From Bacteroidota bacterium (GTDB lineage Bacteria > Bacteroidota > Rhodothermia > JANXDC01), in assembly GCA_025998875.1 (NCBI GenBank), contig AP024675.1:2143549-2207548 (forward strand): a stretch of 64,000 bases of DNA, written 5' to 3'. Shown here piece after piece: positions 10,582 to 27,080 of this stretch (the first letter of the stretch is position 1; every line of letters starts with the position of its first letter). The position numbers and the translations under genes were made by a program. The notes beneath the pieces were generated by a model. That model saw nothing but the letters and a program-made list of their open reading frames with translations, was not told the origin of the DNA and did no database searches.

Positions 10582-11696
10582 ATTCTGTCCCCCTCGTAGA
10601 TGCGTCGTACGCGTGTGCCGATGCGGACCAGGATCTCATAGGGGATCGTATCCAGTTGCTCGGCCCAGTGCCAGGCATGCCAGCTCGGGGTGCCGAAAAG
10701 CACTACCGGATCGCCGAACCGAACCGGGCTATGCAGACCCACCTCGACCATGATAAAGTCCATGTTCACGCTGCCCACAATGGGATAGCGCTGGCCGCGT
10801 ATCTCCACGAAACCCCGGTTGGAGAGACGACGATCCACCCCGTCGGCATATCCCACATTGACTGTGGCGATCCGGGTCGGCCGAGGAGCGCGCCAGGTGG
10901 CCCCGTAGCTTACGCTCGCCCCTCGGGGAAGAAAGCGCACGGATACCACGCGGGCCATCCAGCACAAGGCGGGCTCCAGCCCGCTTACAACCTGCAGAGT
11001 GGGGCTGGGCGCGTATCCGTAAAGGGCTATACCGGGCCGTACGGCGTCGAAATGGGCCTCCGGATAATGCATGATCCCCGCAGAACTGGCCACATGGATC
11101 AGCACCCCCTCGGTATCCAGCCTGCCGAGCAGGGCTCGGAATCGGCGGATCTGCTCTCGCGTCTGCCGGTTCTCTGGCTCGCTGGCTGAGGCCAGGTGGG
11201 TGTATAGCCCCGCAAGCTCTACCGTGGGATGCTGCCGCAGACGCTCCCACCACGTTGGAACGGAGTCCGGATCCAACCCCAGCCTGGCCATGCCGGTGTC
11301 CACCTCCACGTGTACCCGAATCCGATGGGCATCCTCAACGACCCAGTGGGCCACCTCTGGAGCCGTGATGGCCAACTCGAGCCTGTAGCGCTCATACAGG
11401 GGCAACTCCTCCCGCCCGGGCACGCCCAGTACGAGAATGGCCGCCCGGATACCCCCTTCGCGCAGGGCTATGGCTTCCTGAAGCGTCACCACGGCCAGAT
11501 GCTCCACGCCCGCCGATTCGAGCAGACGAGAGACGGCCACCGCACCGTGTCCGTACGCATCGGCCTTGACCACGCCGATTATCCGCACCGAAGGGTGCAG
11601 ATATCGACGCAACGCCTCCAGATTCCGCCGGATCGCCCCCAGCCGTACCCGGGCCTGCGGCTCAGGAGATTCCACGGCAACGTGCGCCTTCCCCAT
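10578..11696 (-). CDS. alr: Alanine racemase
   Basis: This 372-residue fold-type III PLP enzyme interconverts L- and D-alanine for peptidoglycan synthesis. The PLP lysine lies in IGVVKADAYGHGA (K44). The catalytic tyrosine region VSYGATWRAP and the GYADGVDRRLSN motif are both intact, and the length is typical. It appears to be the first gene of a run with a two-component system and an aminotransferase, separated from the upstream gene by a strong terminator. No clear ribosome-binding site is seen before the ATG, so the start could be slightly different. Confidence 0.95.
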   Translation of the reverse strand: MGKAHVAVESPEPQARVRLGAIRRNLEALRRYLHPSVRIIGVVKADAYGHGAVAVSRLLESAGVEHLAVVTLQEAIALREGGIRAAILVLGVPGREELPLYERYRLELAITAPEVAHWVVEDAHRIRVHVEVDTGMARLGLDPDSVPTWWERLRQHPTVELAGLYTHLASASEPENRQTREQIRRFRALLGRLDTEGVLIHVASSAGIMHYPEAHFDAVRPGIALYGYAPSPTLQVVSGLEPALCWMARVVSVRFLPRGASVSYGATWRAPRPTRIATVNVGYADGVDRRLSNRGFVEIRGQRYPIVGSVNMDFIMVEVGLHSPVRFGDPVVLFGTPSWHAWHWAEQLDTIPYEILVRIGTRVRRIYEGDRI

Positions 11697-18417: not shown

Positions 18418-19500
18418 CTACCTCCGCTCCGCCGGTTCATAATGTCCCAACTCGAGCCGGAAAGCCGCCACCAGCACCCCCAGCTGTTCGGTCTCGATGA
18501 GGAAGGCATCGTGTCCATGAGGGGAATCGAGCTCCGCCATCCGGGCATTGGGCAGAAGTCTGGCCAGTTCCCGCGCCTCGTCGGGCCAGTAGAGCACATC
18601 CGAGGAAATGCCCACTACCAGCGCGGGATGCCGGATGGCACGCAGCACGGACTCATATGCGCCTCGGCCCCGAGCAAGGTCATGGCTGTCCATGGCGCGC
18701 GTGAGCACTACGTACGTGTTTGCATCAAAGCGCTCAACCAGCTTGCGGCCCTGATGGTGCAGGTAGCTCTCCACGGCAAACCGGTCCGTGCCCGGCTCCA
18801 GATCGCGCCCGAAACGCCGCCCCAGGCTCTCCGGCCCCCGATACAGGCACATGGCCATCATGCGCGCCGCAGCCAGCCCCTTTTCCGGGCCCTGTTCCGG
18901 CTCGTAGCGTCCCCCCTGCCAGCGGGCATCTGCATAGATGGCCTGCCGCTGGGCCTCGCTGAGGGCAATGGCCCAGGCCGAATGCCGTCCCGAAGTAGCA
19001 ATAGGCACGATCGCCTCCACGCGTTCCGGATACATGAGCGCCCACTCCAGCACCTGCATACCGCCCATGGACCCTCCGATAACGAGCCGCAACCGGCGCA
19101 CGCCCAGGTACTCGAGCAAGGCCGCCTGCAGACGGACCATGTCCCGGATCGTCACGGGCGGGAAATCCGGTCCCCAGGGCTCTCTGCTCCCTGGACGAGG
19201 GCTGAGAGGGCCCGTCGTTCCGTAGCAGCTTCCGAGCACGTTGGAGCAGATGATATAGTCCCGCTCCGGATCCAGCGCACGTCCCGGTCCGAGCATACCC
19301 GCCCACCAGCGATCCACATCAGCCGACCCCGTCAGGGCATGGCAGACGAGCACGACGTTTGTCATCTCCGGATCCGGATCTCCCCAGGTGCGATAGGCCA
19401 CGCGGACTTCGGGCAACACAGCTCCGCATTCCAGCTCGAAAGGTCCGGGATAGATCCAGAAGCGGGTACGCCTGTCTATCAGCGCCAGCCAGCGGTTCAT
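18418..19500 (-). CDS. metX: Homoserine O-acetyltransferase
   Basis: This 360-residue alpha/beta-hydrolase acylates homoserine, normally with acetyl-CoA, as the first step of methionine synthesis. The ATG at 19500 (MNRWLALIDRRTRFWIYPG) lies 7 nt after the metY stop; the longer frame overlaps metY and was rejected. Visible motifs are LVCHALTGSADVDRWW, SNVLGSCYGTTGP, the nucleophile serine in GGSMGGMQVLEWA, and the C-terminal SSDVLYWP ... SPHGHDAFL holding the catalytic Asp and His. Acetyl versus succinyl specificity cannot be read by eye. Confidence 0.94.
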   Translation of the reverse strand: MNRWLALIDRRTRFWIYPGPFELECGAVLPEVRVAYRTWGDPDPEMTNVVLVCHALTGSADVDRWWAGMLGPGRALDPERDYIICSNVLGSCYGTTGPLSPRPGSREPWGPDFPPVTIRDMVRLQAALLEYLGVRRLRLVIGGSMGGMQVLEWALMYPERVEAIVPIATSGRHSAWAIALSEAQRQAIYADARWQGGRYEPEQGPEKGLAAARMMAMCLYRGPESLGRRFGRDLEPGTDRFAVESYLHHQGRKLVERFDANTYVVLTRAMDSHDLARGRGAYESVLRAIRHPALVVGISSDVLYWPDEARELARLLPNARMAELDSPHGHDAFLIETEQLGVLVAAFRLELGHYEPAERR

Positions 19501-19507
19501 AGTCTTC

Positions 19508-20836
<1,329 letters not shown>

Positions 20837-20937
20837 TTATATATGGTTTAAGTCCAGGTACATAAAAATCCACACGCCGAACACTCTGCGAGCATCCCAT
20901 ACCGCCGCTACGGGAGGGGATCGGTTCCGGAAGGGCC

Positions 20938-20980
20938 AAAAACAAAAAACGCCTCTTCCGGGGTGGATGCGGAAGAGGCG
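20938..20980 (-). terminator. Intrinsic terminator, expression platform of the SAM riboswitch
   Basis: On the minus strand CGCCTCTTCC (20980-20971) pairs perfectly with GGAAGAGGCG (20959-20950), followed by TTTTTTGTTTTT. A competing anti-terminator is possible: GGAAGGAG (21021-21014), overlapping the 3' strand of P1, can pair with CTCTTCC (20978-20972) with one bulge. SAM binding would hold P1 closed and let the terminator form. Confidence 0.93.
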
Positions 20981-21019
20981 CGATGCGTATTCAGCGGACT
21001 GAAGCTACGCCGGCTCCTT

Positions 21020-21166
21020 CCGTCATCTTCCCCGCATGCTGTTTTTCGAGCTGCGGGCGGGAATTGGCACCTTTTCCGCTCTCCGCTCCAGACCTGGAGT
21101 CAGAGGCTGCGGAACGGTTGCCAAGGCTTCATCGGGCCCGTTCCCTCCGCCTTTCTGGATGACGGT
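21020..21166 (-). promoter_or_regulatory. SAM-I (S-box) riboswitch
   Basis: The minus strand carries the conserved SAM-I core: GGCGGAGGGAACGGGCCCGA, then GATGAAGCCTTGGCAACC, and later AAGGTGCCAATTCC. P1 is an 8-bp perfect helix, CCGTCATC (21166-21159) with GATGACGG (21027-21020). It precedes a terminator and the metY-metX-thrA operon, so high SAM should stop transcription. The remaining leader from 20937 to 20825 contains only the metY ribosome-binding site. Confidence 0.95.
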
Positions 21167-21190
21167 CGGACGCTTCAAAAGAACACGGGT

Positions 21191-21222
21191 CTAAGATACA
21201 CACAGCTCTTCTCGGAAGGCAA
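21191..21222 (-). promoter_or_regulatory. Promoter of the SAM-riboswitch operon
   Basis: On the minus strand TTG (21222-21220), 21 nt, then TATCTTAG (21198-21191), one base off the TAnnTTTG consensus. It lies 24 nt ahead of the aptamer. Confidence 0.6.
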
Positions 21223-21286
21223 GGGTTGCCGTGCTTGCCCCGCAGTATGGTGTTTCGCATAATAAGGGCGGCAGAAAGGGTCTTCG

Positions 21287-21610
21287 ATGCGTCCCGGCCT
21301 GTTGATCCGTCAGGCGGGATGGGACCTTCTGGTTCCGTTCCTCATCCTCGGCGCCGTACTCCGGCTGCACCCCTTGTTGCCCTGGCTACTGTATGCCTAT
21401 ACGGTGCTTTTGCTCTTGTTGCGTCTGCTGGCGCTGGCTGCTGGCCTACGACCTCCCCGCCCTCCGGAAGGGGAAAGGCTCCCCCATACCCTGTATCATC
21501 TCCTCTACGGGCTCGATGTGGCCCTTCTGCTGTGGGCTCGCTGGTGGATATGGGCCGCCTTGTGGGCGCTGATCTGGGCGCTGGCCGCCCTTTCGGAACG
21601 GCGTCGTTGA
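21287..21610 (+). CDS. Small hypothetical membrane protein
   Basis: This 107-residue protein has three to four hydrophobic segments (WDLLVPFLILGAVLRL, LLYAYTVLLLLLRLLALAAG, WIWAALWALIWALAAL) and little else. An AAAGGG precedes the ATG. It lies between the divergent SAM riboswitch and the inositol-lipid operon, about 100 nt ahead of the latter's start. I do not recognise the family. It could be an accessory protein of the lipid operon, but the operon appears to have its own promoter. Confidence 0.65.
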   Translation: MRPGLLIRQAGWDLLVPFLILGAVLRLHPLLPWLLYAYTVLLLLLRLLALAAGLRPPRPPEGERLPHTLYHLLYGLDVALLLWARWWIWAALWALIWALAALSERRR

Positions 21611-21646
21611 GGGCTCGCCGTCCAGGGTGGGTCTGAACCCATCCTC

Positions 21647-21678
21647 TTGTCCCTTGTCTGCGGGCCTTGTATCTTTTG
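21647..21678 (+). promoter_or_regulatory. Promoter of the inositol-lipid operon
   Basis: TTG (21647-21649), 20 nt, then TATCTTTTG (21670-21678), which is the -7 element with one extra base. It makes the GTG at 21710 the first plausible start of the operon. Confidence 0.55.
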
Positions 21679-21709
21679 CCGATTACAATTTCTTAACAAC
21701 GAGGCTCCT

Positions 21710-22660
21710 GTGGAGCGAGCTCACGCCTGGCGAACCCCGGAAATCGAGGATCCCACAAACCGGTACCTGATTCATCCCCTCAGCTGGGCGCTCGTAGGGC
21801 ATCTGGCGCGCCTGGGTGTTTCCCCCAACGCCGTCTCGCTGGCCGGTCTGGGAAGCGGGATCGGGGCGGCCCTTGCCCTGAGCCACTACGATAAGCCCGG
21901 ATGGCTCCCGCTTGCGGGCGCGCTCCTGTTGCTGTGGCATATCCTCGACGGGGCCGATGGTCAGCTGGCCCGCCTGACGGGCCGCAGTTCGGAGCTGGGC
22001 AAAATTCTGGATGGCCTCTGCGACCACGGCACCTTTGCGGCCCTATACGTGAGCCTGGCCTGGAAGGCCAGCTCCTGGTGGGGTGCCTGGGCCTGGGTGC
22101 TGGCCGTGCTGGCCGCCTTGAGCCATTTTGTGCAGGCAAACGCCTACGAGTTGCAACGCCAGCTCTATGACTACTGGGTATACGGCAAGCCCTCGGCGCG
22201 CCCGGAGGATCCGGACGAGCTCCGGGCGCGCCTTGCGCGGGCCCGTGGGCCGATGGTTCTTTTTCTGCTGCTCTACTACGCCTACGTGCGCCTGCAGCGC
22301 TGGGTACGCTCCTCGTATGGAGCGATCGAGATGTACTGGAATGCGCTCCAAGATCCGGAAGCGCGACAAGAGGTTCGCAACCTGCTGCGCCGTTACCAGG
22401 CGCCCATGGTCCGCCTCTGGGGGCTACTGAGCTCCAACTACCGAACTGCGGCCCTGCTGCTGGCCTGCGCCCTTGGGGAGCCGATGGGCTTTTTCCTCTG
22501 GGAAATCGCGGGCCTGAACCTGCTTCTCGGGTTGCTGTTTGCTCTTCAGGCAGGGCGAAACCGGGTGCTACTGCGGTATATGCGCGGGGGGGAGCCCACC
22601 CTCGGCATGGCTGCCTTCTGTCTGGCATTGCGTTCCTTTTTCATCAAACGGAGAACATAG
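21710..22660 (+). CDS. CDP-alcohol phosphatidyltransferase, probable CDP-inositol-dependent lipid synthase
   Basis: This 316-residue membrane enzyme starts at GTG 21710 after GAGG and downstream of the promoter. The family signature D-x2-D-G-x2-A-R-x8-G-x3-D-x3-D is intact in LDGADGQLARLTGRSSELG followed by KILDGLCDH. Several membrane helices follow. The neighbours make inositol phosphate and CDP-inositol. By analogy with the pathway published for Rhodothermus marinus, this enzyme should transfer inositol phosphate from CDP-inositol to a dialkylglycerol or similar lipid. The alternative is di-myo-inositol-phosphate synthase, where a second inositol phosphate is the acceptor. Context cannot exclude it. 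Confidence 0.82.
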   Translation: MERAHAWRTPEIEDPTNRYLIHPLSWALVGHLARLGVSPNAVSLAGLGSGIGAALALSHYDKPGWLPLAGALLLLWHILDGADGQLARLTGRSSELGKILDGLCDHGTFAALYVSLAWKASSWWGAWAWVLAVLAALSHFVQANAYELQRQLYDYWVYGKPSARPEDPDELRARLARARGPMVLFLLLYYAYVRLQRWVRSSYGAIEMYWNALQDPEARQEVRNLLRRYQAPMVRLWGLLSSNYRTAALLLACALGEPMGFFLWEIAGLNLLLGLLFALQAGRNRVLLRYMRGGEPTLGMAAFCLALRSFFIKRRT

Positions 22661-22661
22661 C

Positions 22662-23990
22662 ATGCGCACAGGAACCCAGATCCCTCCGGCACAGGGGAAG
22701 CTGCTCGTTCTGCTTCCGGGCCTAGGTGCGGTATCGACGACGTTCATCGCCGGCGTAGAGGCCGTGCGTCAAGGTCGCGCTCGCCCGTTCGGATCGCTGA
22801 CGCAGATGCAGACGATCCGGCTGGGCCGACGGTCGGAGCATCGAAACCCGCTCATCCGAGATTTCCTGCCCCTGGCCCGGCTGGAAGACCTCGTCTTCGG
22901 CGCCTGGGACATCTTTCCCGATGATGCCTACGAGGCCGCTCTTCGGGCGCAGGTCCTGGACAAAAACGATCTGGAGCCCCTGGAACCCTTCCTGCGCACG
23001 ATCCGGCCCATGCCCGCCGCCTTCGATCGGCAGTACGTGCGCCGCCTCGACGGGCCGAACGTCAAGCAGGCTCGCAGTAAGTGGGAGCTGGCCCAGATGC
23101 TGCGCGAAGACATCCGCCGCACGCTCGAGGAGACCGGCGCACAACGAGCGGTGATGATCTGGTGTGGCTCTACCGAGGTACACACCCATCCAGCTCCCTG
23201 CCATCAGGACCTGGAGGCCTTCGAGCGGGGGCTGAAAAACAACGACCCCGCCATCACCCCTTCTCAACTCTACGCCTACGCGGCCATCCAGGAGGGCATC
23301 CCCTACGCCAACGGCGCTCCCAACCTGTCGGCCGATATCCCCGCGCTGGAGGCGCTGGCCGAGGAAAAGGGGGTGCCCATCGCCGGCAAGGATTTCAAGA
23401 CCGGACAGACCTTCCTGAAGACCGTCATCGCACCCGGACTCAAGGCCCGCATGCTCGGGGTGCGGGGCTGGTTTTCCACCAACATCCTGGGCAATCGGGA
23501 CGGGGCGGTGCTCGATGACCCCGGAAGCTTCCAGGCCAAGGAATTCACCAAGTCCGGCGTGCTGTCGACCATCCTGCAGCCGGAGTTGTATCCGGAGCTC
23601 TACGGGGATCTGTATCACAAGGTGGACATCAACTACTACCCGCCCCGCGGCGATGCCAAGGAATCCTGGGACAACATCGACATCTTCGGCTGGATGGGCT
23701 ATCCCATGCAGATCAAGGTCAATTTTCTCTGCCGGGATTCCATCCTGGCTGCGCCTGTGGTCCTGGACCTGGCCCTGTTTCTGGACCTGGCCGCGCGGGC
23801 CGGCCTGAAGGGCATTCAGGAGTGGCTGTCTTTTTACTTCAAAAGCCCCCATGTCTATGCGGGCCATGTGCCGGAGCACGATCTCTTCATCCAGCACATC
23901 CGGCTCAAGAACACCCTCCGTCTGCTGGGAGGAGAGGAACCCGTCACCCACCTCTCCGAAGACCTGGACCTCTACGAGGTGCTGCGCTGA
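22662..23990 (+). CDS. Inositol-3-phosphate synthase
   Basis: This 442-residue enzyme makes L-myo-inositol phosphate from glucose 6-phosphate using NAD. Its Rossmann start is unusually written as LLVLLPGLGAVSTTFIAGVE. Conserved parts include IWCGSTEV, PNLSADIPALEALAEEKGVP, IAGKDFKTGQT, the NILGNRDGAVLDDP segment, and KVDINYYPPRGDAKESWDNIDIFGW. It starts 1 nt after the phosphatidyltransferase stop and its stop overlaps the next ATG, giving a tight three-gene unit. Confidence 0.94.
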   Translation: MRTGTQIPPAQGKLLVLLPGLGAVSTTFIAGVEAVRQGRARPFGSLTQMQTIRLGRRSEHRNPLIRDFLPLARLEDLVFGAWDIFPDDAYEAALRAQVLDKNDLEPLEPFLRTIRPMPAAFDRQYVRRLDGPNVKQARSKWELAQMLREDIRRTLEETGAQRAVMIWCGSTEVHTHPAPCHQDLEAFERGLKNNDPAITPSQLYAYAAIQEGIPYANGAPNLSADIPALEALAEEKGVPIAGKDFKTGQTFLKTVIAPGLKARMLGVRGWFSTNILGNRDGAVLDDPGSFQAKEFTKSGVLSTILQPELYPELYGDLYHKVDINYYPPRGDAKESWDNIDIFGWMGYPMQIKVNFLCRDSILAAPVVLDLALFLDLAARAGLKGIQEWLSFYFKSPHVYAGHVPEHDLFIQHIRLKNTLRLLGGEEPVTHLSEDLDLYEVLR

Positions 23991-24751
23991 TGCACGCCTC
24001 CGCTCCCCACACAGCGGTGATCCTGGCAGCGGGCATGGGCTCCCGACTGCGGGCGACCAACGGGACGAGCCTGCCCAAGCCACTTGTTCCCTTGCTGGGC
24101 CGTCCGCTTATTCTATACGTCCTGGATAACGCCGCTCGGGCCGGCTGCCAGGAGGCCGTCGTCGTACTCGGCTACGAAGCCGAACGGATCGAGCAGGCCG
24201 TACGGGCACTCTACCGCGGCCCCCTGCGTCTGCATTTCGTCCGCAATCCGGAATACGCGCTGCAGAACGGGATCTCCGTTCTTGTCGCCGCCCCTTACGT
24301 GCACAGGGAGCCCTTTCTGTTGCTTATGGCCGACCATCTGGTCGATCCGCGCCTCATGGACCGGATCCGGAACGTCTCCCTTCCCCCGGGAAACGCCCTG
24401 CTGGTGGTGGACTTCCGGCTCGAGACGATCTTTGATCTGCAGGATGCGACCAAGGTGCTTGTGGAGGGCAACCGGATCCGGGCTATCGGCAAAGAGCTAG
24501 GCACCTACAACGCGGTAGATACAGGGGTTTTTCTGGCCGATCGAGCGCTCCTAGAGGCCCTCGAAGAGGCCCGCTCCCTGCAGGGAGGGGATGCTTCCCT
24601 CTCCGACGGCGTGCGCCGGCTCATCGCCCGTGACCGCATGCTCGCCCTGGACATGGAAGAAGGCTTCTGGCAGGACGTCGACACGGCGGCCATGCATCGG
24701 GAGGCGGAAATGCGCTGGAAGCGGCTAGAGGCCCAGTTGTCTGCGACATAG
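23990..24751 (+). CDS. Nucleotidyltransferase, probable CTP:inositol-1-phosphate cytidylyltransferase
   Basis: This 253-residue protein is a GT-A nucleotidyltransferase: VILAAGMGSRLRATNGTSLP followed by KPLVPLLGRP forms the nucleotide-binding loop. LLLMADHLVDPRLMD supplies the metal-binding acidic residue. Its ATG overlaps the TGA of the inositol-3-phosphate synthase gene. Homologous domains in the fused IPCT-DIPPS enzymes of hyperthermophiles activate inositol phosphate with CTP. The context makes CDP-inositol the expected product. Sugar-phosphate activation would be the alternative reading if the gene stood alone. Confidence 0.85.
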   Translation: MHASAPHTAVILAAGMGSRLRATNGTSLPKPLVPLLGRPLILYVLDNAARAGCQEAVVVLGYEAERIEQAVRALYRGPLRLHFVRNPEYALQNGISVLVAAPYVHREPFLLLMADHLVDPRLMDRIRNVSLPPGNALLVVDFRLETIFDLQDATKVLVEGNRIRAIGKELGTYNAVDTGVFLADRALLEALEEARSLQGGDASLSDGVRRLIARDRMLALDMEEGFWQDVDTAAMHREAEMRWKRLEAQLSAT

Positions 24752-24769
24752 CGAGCATCATAGTTTTTG
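24737..24769 (+). promoter_or_regulatory. Promoter for the second two-component system
   Basis: TTG (24737-24739), 21 nt, then TAGTTTTTG (24761-24769). It overlaps the end of the cytidylyltransferase gene and lies 32 nt before the kinase start. Confidence 0.5.
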
Positions 24770-24801
24770 GCTGATCCATCCCCCTGAGCCCACGCACGTT
24801 C

Positions 24802-26403
24802 ATGGGTGGTCTGCCGCGTCGATCTCTTACGATGCTGGGCCTGATGGCCCTTTGCATTCTGGCCAGCCTGTACCTGGCCCTCCAGGAGTTGCGCACGAGC
24901 GCGCATCTGGCCGATGAGGTCGAACGCGGCCTGCGCAGCGATGCGGAGTTCTTTCTCGACCGGTTGAATCGCTATACCGAGGAGATCGTCTACAACCAGA
25001 ACACCCGTCGCGCGGTCGAAAGTGAAAGCTATCTGATCCAGACCCCCCGCGGATGGGTTTTCGGGTTCGATTACTCCTACACCATCCCGGACCTCGTAGA
25101 GTACGCCTTTTATATCGATCTGCGCGAGCGGCGCGCCTACACCAGCGACCCGGATCGCGATCCGGCCGAGGTGCTTGCCGTCTTCTCCATCGACACCCTC
25201 GAGGCCCGCATCCCGGACCATTACCCCTATATCCTGCGCGGCGTCCGAGAAGGCCCTCACGGGCCGTTCCATTACGTGTACCTGTACGCCATGGTCGGGG
25301 AGCACGACGATTTTGTCGTCAAAGGCGTCAAGGTCAACCCCCGAACCGTCCTCAACCGGGTCCTGCCGGAGGCCTACCGGTATCTGCAGGAGCTGGTGCG
25401 CACCCAGCGCGGACATTTTCCCCACGAGTACTTCGATATCTGGCTCTACACCCCCCACGATACGGTGCGGCTCTCCCCCCGAACCCGTGCCCTGCGCTAC
25501 ACGGGCCTGTACCGGGCCCGTTTCGATCCAACCGGCGGCCTGTTTGCCAACTGGACCCTAGAGGTGCGCTACTGGAACCGGCTCAGGGCGCAGGGGCTTG
25601 TGCCGTACATACGCGTCTTCATCCCCGCTTTGGTGCTCATCCTGGCCCTCATGCTCGTATACCGTATGGCCGCCCGGGAGATGGAGTTGGCTCGGCTGAA
25701 GGCCGATTTCGTCTCCAACGTATCCCACGAGCTCAAAACTCCCCTGGCCAAGATTCGCTTCTTTACGGAAATGCTGCGCTCCGGGCATGCCCGCACCCCG
25801 GATCGCCGAGCCCAGTACCTGGCCATCATCGAACAGGAATGCGAACGGCTCACGCGCCTGGTCGACAACGTGCTGGACTTCGCCCGTATCGAACGAGGCC
25901 AGATGCAGTACAGCATGCAGCCCGTTGATCTGAGCGCGTTGCTGGAACAGATCCTGCATACCTTCGGTACGCTGTACCGAAGCCGCGGCTATCAGCTCCG
26001 CGTGGAACGGTCTGCGAATCTGCCGTCCACGATCGAGGCCGACCCCGGTGCGCTCACGCAGGCCGTGGTGAACCTGCTGGACAACGCCGTAAAGTATTCC
26101 CAGCCGCATGAAATCCGCATTCGGCTAGATCGATCCGATGGATACGTGCGCCTGAGCGTACAGGATCAGGGCGTGGGGATCCCCCGGGAGCACCTGCCAT
26201 ACATCTTTCGCAGCTTCTATCGCATCGAATCCGGCCTCACCCAGCGTGCTTCGGGCAGCGGACTGGGTCTGGCCGTAGTGCAGCACATCGTTCGAGCCCA
26301 TCGCGGTCGAATCGAGGTAGAAAGCGAACCGGGCCGGGGCAGTACGTTTACGTTGCTGTTGCCGATCACGCAATCCCAATCGAAGGCGCAGGAGTTGCCA
26401 TGA
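24802..26403 (+). CDS. Membrane sensor histidine kinase
   Basis: This 533-residue kinase has a membrane segment at about residues 9-29 and a large extracytoplasmic sensor (about 30-265) rich in Tyr and acidic residues. A second membrane segment lies at about 268-288. The HisKA box is DFVSNVSHELKTPLAKIRFF with H309. The ATPase domain carries NLLDNAVKYS, DQGVGIPREHLPYIF and GSGLGLAVVQHI. No HAMP domain is obvious between the second membrane segment and the H box. Its end shares an ATGA with the response regulator gene. It lies just after the inositol-lipid operon, which may or may not be its target. Confidence 0.94.
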   Translation: MGGLPRRSLTMLGLMALCILASLYLALQELRTSAHLADEVERGLRSDAEFFLDRLNRYTEEIVYNQNTRRAVESESYLIQTPRGWVFGFDYSYTIPDLVEYAFYIDLRERRAYTSDPDRDPAEVLAVFSIDTLEARIPDHYPYILRGVREGPHGPFHYVYLYAMVGEHDDFVVKGVKVNPRTVLNRVLPEAYRYLQELVRTQRGHFPHEYFDIWLYTPHDTVRLSPRTRALRYTGLYRARFDPTGGLFANWTLEVRYWNRLRAQGLVPYIRVFIPALVLILALMLVYRMAAREMELARLKADFVSNVSHELKTPLAKIRFFTEMLRSGHARTPDRRAQYLAIIEQECERLTRLVDNVLDFARIERGQMQYSMQPVDLSALLEQILHTFGTLYRSRGYQLRVERSANLPSTIEADPGALTQAVVNLLDNAVKYSQPHEIRIRLDRSDGYVRLSVQDQGVGIPREHLPYIFRSFYRIESGLTQRASGSGLGLAVVQHIVRAHRGRIEVESEPGRGSTFTLLLPITQSQSKAQELP

Positions 26404-27080
26404 ACAAGACGCGTCTGCTCATCGTAGAGGACGACCAAGACCTGGCCTACGGGCTGCGGGATTTCTTCGAAGACGAAGGCTTTTCCGTCAGCCTGGCCTT
26501 TGACGGTCCACGCGCATTGGCCTGCCTCCGAGAGCGCACTTTTGACCTCATCATTCTGGACGTCATGTTGCCGGGTGTAAGCGGCTTCGAACTGTTGCGC
26601 CGCTGGCGCGAGGAGGGGATACATACGCCTGTGCTCCTGCTTACAGCCAAGGGACAGGAGGCCGATAAGATCGAGGGATTCCGAGCCGGAGCCGACGATT
26701 ACGTCACCAAACCCTTCAGCGCAGCCGAACTGCTTGAACGGGTCCGGGCTATTCTGCGGCGCGCCATCCCGGGCCCGCTGGATGTCTATACCTTCGGCAA
26801 CATTACGGTTAACTTCACCACGCACACAGCCTATAAGGACAATCAGCCCATCAACTTCACCGCTCTGGAGTTCGCCATTCTGAAATACCTCATCGAGCAT
26901 CGGGGCCGATCGGTCTCCCGGCAGCAGCTGCTGCGCGACGTCTGGCAGACGCGCGAAGATCTGGCCACGCGCACCATCGATCGGCATATCGCCAGCCTGC
27001 GCAAAAAAATCGAGGACGACGCAGACAACCCGCGCTACATCGCCACGGTCTACGGCGTGGGATACAAGTTCCTGGGTTGA
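26400..27080 (+). CDS. OmpR-family response regulator
   Basis: This 226-residue regulator has the receiver residues ED-D (VEDDQD), phospho-acceptor D54 (LIILDVMLPGVSG) and K104 (DDYVTKPFSA). A winged-helix DNA-binding domain follows (NFTALEFAILKYL, TIDRHIASLRKKIEDDADNP, VYGVGYKF). It is translationally coupled to the kinase gene upstream. Its stop lies 2 nt from the stop of the convergent NhaC gene. Confidence 0.95.
   Translation: MNKTRLLIVEDDQDLAYGLRDFFEDEGFSVSLAFDGPRALACLRERTFDLIILDVMLPGVSGFELLRRWREEGIHTPVLLLTAKGQEADKIEGFRAGADDYVTKPFSAAELLERVRAILRRAIPGPLDVYTFGNITVNFTTHTAYKDNQPINFTALEFAILKYLIEHRGRSVSRQQLLRDVWQTREDLATRTIDRHIASLRKKIEDDADNPRYIATVYGVGYKFLG

Follow-up and report, generated by a model that had tools for sequence, protein, structure and literature searches.

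How does a bacterium that appears equipped to make inositol phosphate and to activate it with CTP put these products to use? Bacteria seldom make inositol lipids, and the usual view is that those that occur are made through CDP-diacylglycerol. The question is raised by an operon of three abutting genes in a Bacteroidota bacterium of the class Rhodothermia, which encode, in this order, a CDP-alcohol phosphotransferase, an inositol-3-phosphate synthase and a predicted cytidylyltransferase. We analysed the operon within a window of 64,000 nucleotides (contig AP024675.1, positions 2,143,549 to 2,207,548) of a genome that consists of a single contig of 2,354,932 bases. Our analysis indicates that the operon very probably makes an inositol phospholipid by a CDP-inositol route. 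The basis for this reading is computed, and comprises membership in three protein families, an active-site signature, a collinear operon in Rhodothermus marinus and the finding of the genes together across relatives. From it we infer the enzyme activities and a dialkyl- or diacylglycerol acceptor.

In the proposed pathway the synthase would convert glucose 6-phosphate to L-myo-inositol-1-phosphate (the same compound as D-inositol-3-phosphate), the cytidylyltransferase would join this product with CTP to give CDP-inositol and pyrophosphate, and the membrane phosphotransferase would move phosphoinositol from CDP-inositol to the free hydroxyl of a neutral glycerolipid with release of CMP. An inositol phospholipid would be formed directly by this last step, and therefore no phosphatase would be needed. 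The sequence comparisons make CDP-inositol a well supported donor, with dialkyl- and diacylglycerol as the likeliest acceptors. We prefer dialkylglycerol solely because it is the acceptor reportedly used in R. marinus.

All three genes lie on the plus strand where the earlier note had placed them, which confirms that observation. The transferase gene (21710-22660) encodes 316 residues from a GTG start to a TAG stop; its open reading frame (ORF) as opened begins at a TTG at 21647, and the 316-residue form from the GTG at 21710 agrees with the N termini of relatives. A single base separates it from the ATG at 22662 of the synthase gene (MIPS; 22662-23990, 442 residues), whose stop codon overlaps by one base, at 23990, the ATG of the gene for the predicted CTP:inositol-1-phosphate cytidylyltransferase (IPCT; 23990-24751, 253 residues). 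The IPCT is thus a gene of its own and no fused IPCT-DIPPS enzyme is encoded, also as previously described.

The synthase belongs securely to its family, matching both PF07994 (309.7 bits) and PF01658 (108.4 bits) over their cut-offs, and the genome yielded no second match. Among solved structures the closest is PDB 7nwr (E 1.8e-159), from Bacteroides thetaiotaomicron, whose structure is described in PMC9246714. For the cytidylyltransferase, a single-sequence search gave 2xme (E 4.7e-17), 4jd0 and 4mnd as the three best solved relatives. A 20-row profile (A3) returned the same three at 1.1e-38 for 2xme, 3.8e-38 for 4mnd and 2.2e-30 for 4jd0, with the next nucleotidyltransferase about 12 orders worse at 2.7e-18. 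This profile holds the window protein, that of R. marinus (a row that begins one codon past the ATG at 10789) and 18 further rows. For the latter, 85 stretches gave 63 usable sequences, which were thinned to 19, and L130 was then excluded. By these profile scores the predicted cytidylyltransferase groups with the inositol-phosphate enzymes. Its residues R19, K30 and D115 are invariant in 20 of 20 rows and in our own reading would correspond to the Arg, Lys and Asp that PMC12275187 names for the active site of 4jd0. From its place beside the synthase, the enzyme would be expected to use inositol-1-phosphate and CTP.

The transferase carries the CDP-alcohol phosphotransferase signature DGADGQLAR-x8-G-x3-D-x3-D and scores 52.4 bits against Pfam CDP-OH_P_transf, for which the cut-off is 22. 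It reaches no NCBIfam equivalog cut-off, those of the CDP-diacylglycerol enzymes included; its best scores there are to archaetidylinositol-phosphate synthase (49.5 bits, cut-off 180) and PIP synthase (48.7 bits, cut-off 170), and the BT1523-type PIP synthase model gives 21.4 bits against a cut-off of 350. The genome encodes four CDP-alcohol phosphotransferases, none of which reaches the PIP synthase cut-off. Of the other three, two score as PgsA (115 bits against a cut-off of 109) and PssA (135 bits against 107) and the third, at 67.5 bits, is PgsA-like but falls below the cut-off; the BT1523-type model has no match above cut-off in the whole genome. Taken with the operon, these comparisons make the transferase a probable CDP-inositol:(dialkyl- or diacyl-)glycerol inositolphosphotransferase.

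An AlphaFold2 model of the transferase built from 45 rows (mean pLDDT 93.5) contains a six-helix core and three more helices (168-177, 182-212 and 216-240) between helices 126-158 and 242-254. Taking the latter two as transmembrane helices TM4 and TM5, the three helices would be an insert relative to the solved enzymes. None of the 45 rows departs from N243, R245 or T246, so that an N-x-R-T motif stands at the start of what would be TM5 by helix order in every row of the family. The nearest solved relative is AF2299 whether by sequence profile (E 1.1e-10), by Foldseek (E 7.9e-4, the only match below 0.001) or by VIA-align (Z 19.3). The enzymes that follow depend on the method. VIA-align places DIPP synthase 4mnd next (Z 17.2, root-mean-square deviation 3.2 over 189 residues), then PIP synthases (Z 14-15) and choline/ethanolamine phosphotransferases (Z 10-12); Foldseek places PIP synthase chains next, with PIP synthases and CEPT1 both outranking DIPP synthase; and the sequence profile gives human CEPT1 (6e-7), an enzyme that uses a CDP-headgroup and a lipid acceptor, followed by PIP synthases (1.9e-6 and worse) and DIPP synthase (0.0013). 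The missed cut-offs and the first place of AF2299 would set the transferase apart from ordinary CDP-diacylglycerol enzymes, a grouping with which would have refuted the proposal of the earlier note. The separation is only weakly settled because second place falls to DIPP synthase, CEPT1 or PIP synthase according to the method.

The same three genes occur in the same order in R. marinus. A transferase match above 290 bits is present in seven of 60 genomes of the class (a set that contains the window genome), namely the window genome, a second genome of its genus and five of the genus Rhodothermus. The order transferase, synthase, cytidylyltransferase is identical in all six others, including R. 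marinus DSM 4252, to which the window proteins are 52%, 84% and 54% identical, respectively. The spacing differs, with a 30-base gap and a 4-base overlap in R. marinus compared with a 1-base gap and a 1-base overlap in the window. By the grouping of the genome tool, the window genome belongs to a different family of the class than R. marinus. The study of Jorge, Borges and Santos from 2015 is said to have found that CDP-inositol is the source of dialkylether glycerophosphoinositol in R. marinus and that the organism lacks di-myo-inositol phosphate, and reportedly noted homologues in Sphingobacteria and Alphaproteobacteria. PMC10191378 lists this study as a reference and PMC9246714 mentions dialkylether glycerophosphoinositol lipids made from CDP-inositol. 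The collinear operon of DSM 4252, together with the placement of the transferases in one well-supported 12-row clade, supports the previous proposal that the window bacterium follows the same CDP-inositol lipid route as R. marinus.

Association of the genes extends well beyond the class. When the genomes of named bacteria and archaea were scanned with a nine-row alignment, 133 transferase relatives were obtained, and the analysis covered the best 80. These come from Rhodothermota, other Bacteroidota-like genomes, Kapabacteria, many Alphaproteobacteria (Acidocella, Gluconacetobacter, Nitrospirillum, Emcibacter and others), some Gammaproteobacteria and one Geothrix. Both the synthase and the cytidylyltransferase were present at 53 of the 80 loci, the cytidylyltransferase only at 8 and neither at 19, as counted within the fetched stretches, several of which stop at a contig end. 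When the genomes of 18 of these 19 loci were searched (L061 was left out), 16 had a cytidylyltransferase match of 250-332 bits elsewhere. The cytidylyltransferase thus accompanies the transferase in 77 of 80 cases (61 in the locus and 16 elsewhere), one copy, in G398, having an internal stop codon. The synthase is of two types, a long one at 10 loci, each in the order transferase, synthase, cytidylyltransferase, and a short one at 43 loci, and the two are only 22-27% identical at the four loci where both aligned. Since two very different synthases keep the same two partners, inositol phosphate would be the shared substrate, and the two types may have been joined to the transferase on two separate occasions. 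For the family alignment (A2), 6 of the 80 loci were left out, being without a start codon by the rule applied (L088, L130, L132), too short or partial (L114, L131) or, by elimination, having an N in the sequence (L118); the other 74 were then thinned to 44 at 75% identity. In a Kordiimonadaceae/Emcibacteraceae-like set of loci (L071, L081, L083, L084, L086, L092, L100, L102, L103 and L105) a distance of about 3 to 4 kb separates the transferase gene from those for the synthase and the cytidylyltransferase, which are on the other strand.

Several points weigh against an inositol phospholipid made from CDP-inositol. According to PMC12275187 a homologue of the cytidylyltransferase, CpgD of Caulobacter, has 4jd0 as its best structural match and uses phosphoglycerate. 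Homology of the cytidylyltransferase alone therefore cannot fix its substrate, and it is the adjacent synthase that does most to do so. Two of the 18 searched genomes lack a good cytidylyltransferase (G401, 61 bits; G410, none), and the co-occurrence counts cover transferase-bearing genomes only. That the gene tested in the 2015 R. marinus study is the orthologue of the window transferase, found at 1396497-1397432 of the first DSM 4252 contig, is likewise something that we infer. The nearest folds, AF2299 and DIPP synthase, are enzymes that PMC4634129 describes as not processing lipids. The same paper assigns soluble acceptors to six-helix enzymes and extra C-terminal helices to enzymes with lipid acceptors, and the transferase model has no such helices. 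A lipid acceptor, such as R. marinus reportedly uses, would therefore have to be held in some way other than by C-terminal helices.

Additionally, the ether-lipid markers that were tried gave no convincing candidate in the window genome. For example, PF09989, which we take to be part of Ger/PlsA-type enzymes, has no match in the window genome and none in R. marinus; its absence is uninformative because R. marinus lacks it too. Matches to PcrB in the window genome (23.5 bits, or 24.2 with neighbours) and in its same-genus relative (24.5 bits) lie about the cut-off of 23.9, cover the last quarter of the model only and were set down to chance, and R. marinus has none. The weaker of two FAD-oxidase_C genes in the window genome was rejected as a marker, being closest to lactate/glycolate oxidases. 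NAD_binding_4 has many matches, the strongest of 155 bits in the window genome.

The earlier note had left the operon's product as either a lipid or the solute di-myo-inositol phosphate. In the latter case phosphoinositol would pass from CDP-inositol to a second inositol phosphate and a phosphatase encoded elsewhere would finish the product. This has in its favour that the donor would be the same and that DIPP synthase is the second-closest fold by VIA-align. The Archaeoglobus fulgidus IPCT-DIPPS (4mnd, 2xme) and Thermotoga maritima IPCT (4jd0) resemble the window proteins in the cytidylyltransferase domain and the core fold of the CDP-alcohol phosphotransferase. The window genes, unlike the A. 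fulgidus IPCT-DIPPS, are separate, and the window transferase has the extra helices between TM4 and TM5 in its model and probably a lipid acceptor instead of inositol phosphate. By sequence profile DIPP synthase stands far down, seven orders behind AF2299, and the NCBIfam model for DIPP synthase gives 29.4 bits against a cut-off of 580, a weak point because that model was built for the fused Thermococcales enzyme. The R. marinus orthologue reportedly acts on dialkylglycerol, and the transferase often occurs together with its two partner genes in Acetobacter, Gluconacetobacter, Acidocella and Nitrospirillum, which are not heat-loving and from which di-myo-inositol phosphate is not known. PMC9246714 and PMC10191378 also place CDP-inositol in lipid synthesis by thermophiles. 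Thus the solute is very unlikely to be the product, while the lipid is favoured by the collinear R. marinus operon.

We give as little credence to the transferase being a PIP synthase that joins CDP-diacylglycerol with inositol phosphate, the cytidylyltransferase then serving another pathway. The actinobacterial and B. thetaiotaomicron PIP synthases do share the catalytic signature and the six-helix core with it, archaetidylinositol-phosphate and PIP synthases are its best NCBIfam matches, and Foldseek E-values put PIP synthase chains ahead of DIPP synthase. Those NCBIfam scores are far below their cut-offs, the VIA-align Z of 14-15 compares with 17-19 for AF2299 and DIPP synthase, the operon has no phosphatase for PIP, and the tightness of the operon and the presence of the cytidylyltransferase in 77 of 80 cases would be left unexplained. 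With CDP-inositol as donor, the roles of donor and acceptor would be the reverse of those in PIP synthases. In PIP synthases an RxxR motif at the start of TM5 helps to hold the phosphate of the acceptor. Loss of its first Arg was considered as evidence here and dropped, because in an alignment with four BT1523-like proteins RxxR does not stand opposite the N-x-R-T of the family. It is also improbable that the lipid acceptor is ceramide or another alcohol, such that, for example, an inositol sphingolipid would be made directly. A sister clade of the transferase does occur in clusters of alternative make-up, and according to PMC9246714 Bacteroides vulgatus and Prevotella veroralis, which have the alternative cluster, make phosphoinositol dihydroceramide. 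The same paper proposes PI-DAG as product of the CDP-alcohol enzyme and a HAD protein for the ceramide step, and the window operon contains no HAD gene.

That sister clade was recovered in a quick maximum-likelihood tree of 81 transferase rows, for which support is by SH-aLRT only and the drawing is midpoint-rooted. The window transferase and its same-genus relative form a pair (99), which is joined first by Kapabacteria-like rows (99) and next by the Rhodothermus rows (97). Under midpoint rooting the 51-row family has as its sister an 18-row clade, whose rows belong to fifteen genomes of the same phylum, presumably the Bacteroidota, and to two further members of the class. A long synthase is present at 11 of 17 sister-clade loci, and 10 of those 11 also have a nucleotidyltransferase, with profile A3 scores of 28-64 bits. 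At one such locus (L205) the order is nucleotidyltransferase, a 283-residue protein, transferase, LPG-synthase-like protein, HAD hydrolase and synthase. PMC9246714 describes an 'alternative' inositol-lipid cluster of Bacteroidota that consists of MIPS, NTP transferase, CDP-alcohol phosphotransferase and HAD, predicted in 2022 and with its function unconfirmed there. By gene content L205 matches this cluster. The likeness to the window operon lies in the homologous transferase, the long MIPS and the nucleotidyltransferase; the differences are that the transferase of the alternative cluster is about 23-33% identical to that of the window, and that the HAD and LPG-synthase-like genes of L205 are absent from the window operon. 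Homology of the predicted proteins thus links the alternative cluster to the R. marinus type without proving function.

Proteins of 283-308 residues, with N termini alike by eye, lie between nucleotidyltransferase and transferase at L205 (8010-8861), L196 (7771-8631) and L202 (7714-8640); that of L205 has no Pfam or NCBIfam match. Two CDP-alcohol phosphotransferases in tandem, both like the transferase, were also observed at L213 (5394-9019), L214 (6356-9985) and L212 (6663-8391), and at L213 they flank a nucleotidyltransferase and a HisC/CobD-like pyridoxal-phosphate (PLP) enzyme. The fetched stretches of these three loci yielded no inositol-phosphate synthase, and the loci possibly represent a CDP-headgroup route with another headgroup.

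The CDP-inositol pathway is already known from R. marinus, and with the window operon it extends to a second family of the class to which Rhodothermus belongs. The transferase also resembles the eukaryotic choline/ethanolamine phosphotransferases of the Kennedy pathway, which join a CDP-headgroup to a neutral lipid, though these carry extra C-terminal transmembrane helices that the window model does not have. A broader view, to which we assign even chances, is that the family consists of bacterial Kennedy-type enzymes that transfer a CDP-headgroup to a neutral lipid, with the helices between TM4 and TM5 of the six-helix core in place of C-terminal ones. Such enzymes would be distributed across Rhodothermota, Kapabacteria, Alpha- and Gammaproteobacteria and Acidobacteriota, and via the sister clade in the alternative clusters of Bacteroidota. 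They would have been joined separately with two very different synthases, and some of the tandem copies beside a PLP enzyme may carry another headgroup. Transferase and cytidylyltransferase occur together in most of the best 80 relatives, from several phyla, and homology ties the one reported enzyme to clusters of predicted function. The function of these three genes, here or in R. marinus, consequently bears on many genomes and on the use of lipid acceptors in bacteria. Among papers since 2015 in the collection searched that mention CDP-inositol, none was found by title to concern this organism or the linking of these families.

Upstream of the operon, the small membrane protein described previously is indeed present as a plus-strand ORF of 107 residues (21287-21610). 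This hydrophobic protein belongs to no Pfam or NCBIfam family, has a 56% identical copy adjoining the operon in the same-genus genome and, by tblastn with E up to 1e-3, gave no match when the five loci from the genus Rhodothermus were compared, and as a neighbour its membership in the operon is conjectural. Between it and the transferase gene is a 99-base gap (21611-21709, plus strand) with an AT-rich element, a candidate promoter region. The dedicated promoter of the earlier note is thus conjectural. A sigma-70 scan found no site in this gap and is uninformative, since over 20825-24900 it found 1 site where 0.9 are expected. Comparison by eye identified an element, TATCTTTT ... TTAC(A/G)ATTT(C/G)TTAACAA, 5' of the transferase gene both here and in the same-genus genome, with TATCTTTT at about -40.

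Directly 3' of the operon on the same strand are genes for a histidine kinase and a response regulator (24802-27080), an order kept in the same-genus genome. This two-component pair and the small upstream protein distinguish the window from the five Rhodothermus-genus loci, where the regulator has no match; the kinase has only distant matches (31-32%) elsewhere, in three of the five. A Na+/H+ antiporter family protein on the minus strand (29161-27083) converges on the pair. On the other side, a SAM riboswitch (Rfam RF00162, 82.9 bits; 21165-21020, minus strand) lies 5' of a divergent gene set. This set comprises a Cys/Met PLP enzyme (20824-19508), a putative MetX (ORF at 18418-19755) and, beyond that ORF, a fused aspartate kinase-homoserine dehydrogenase (18412-15965).

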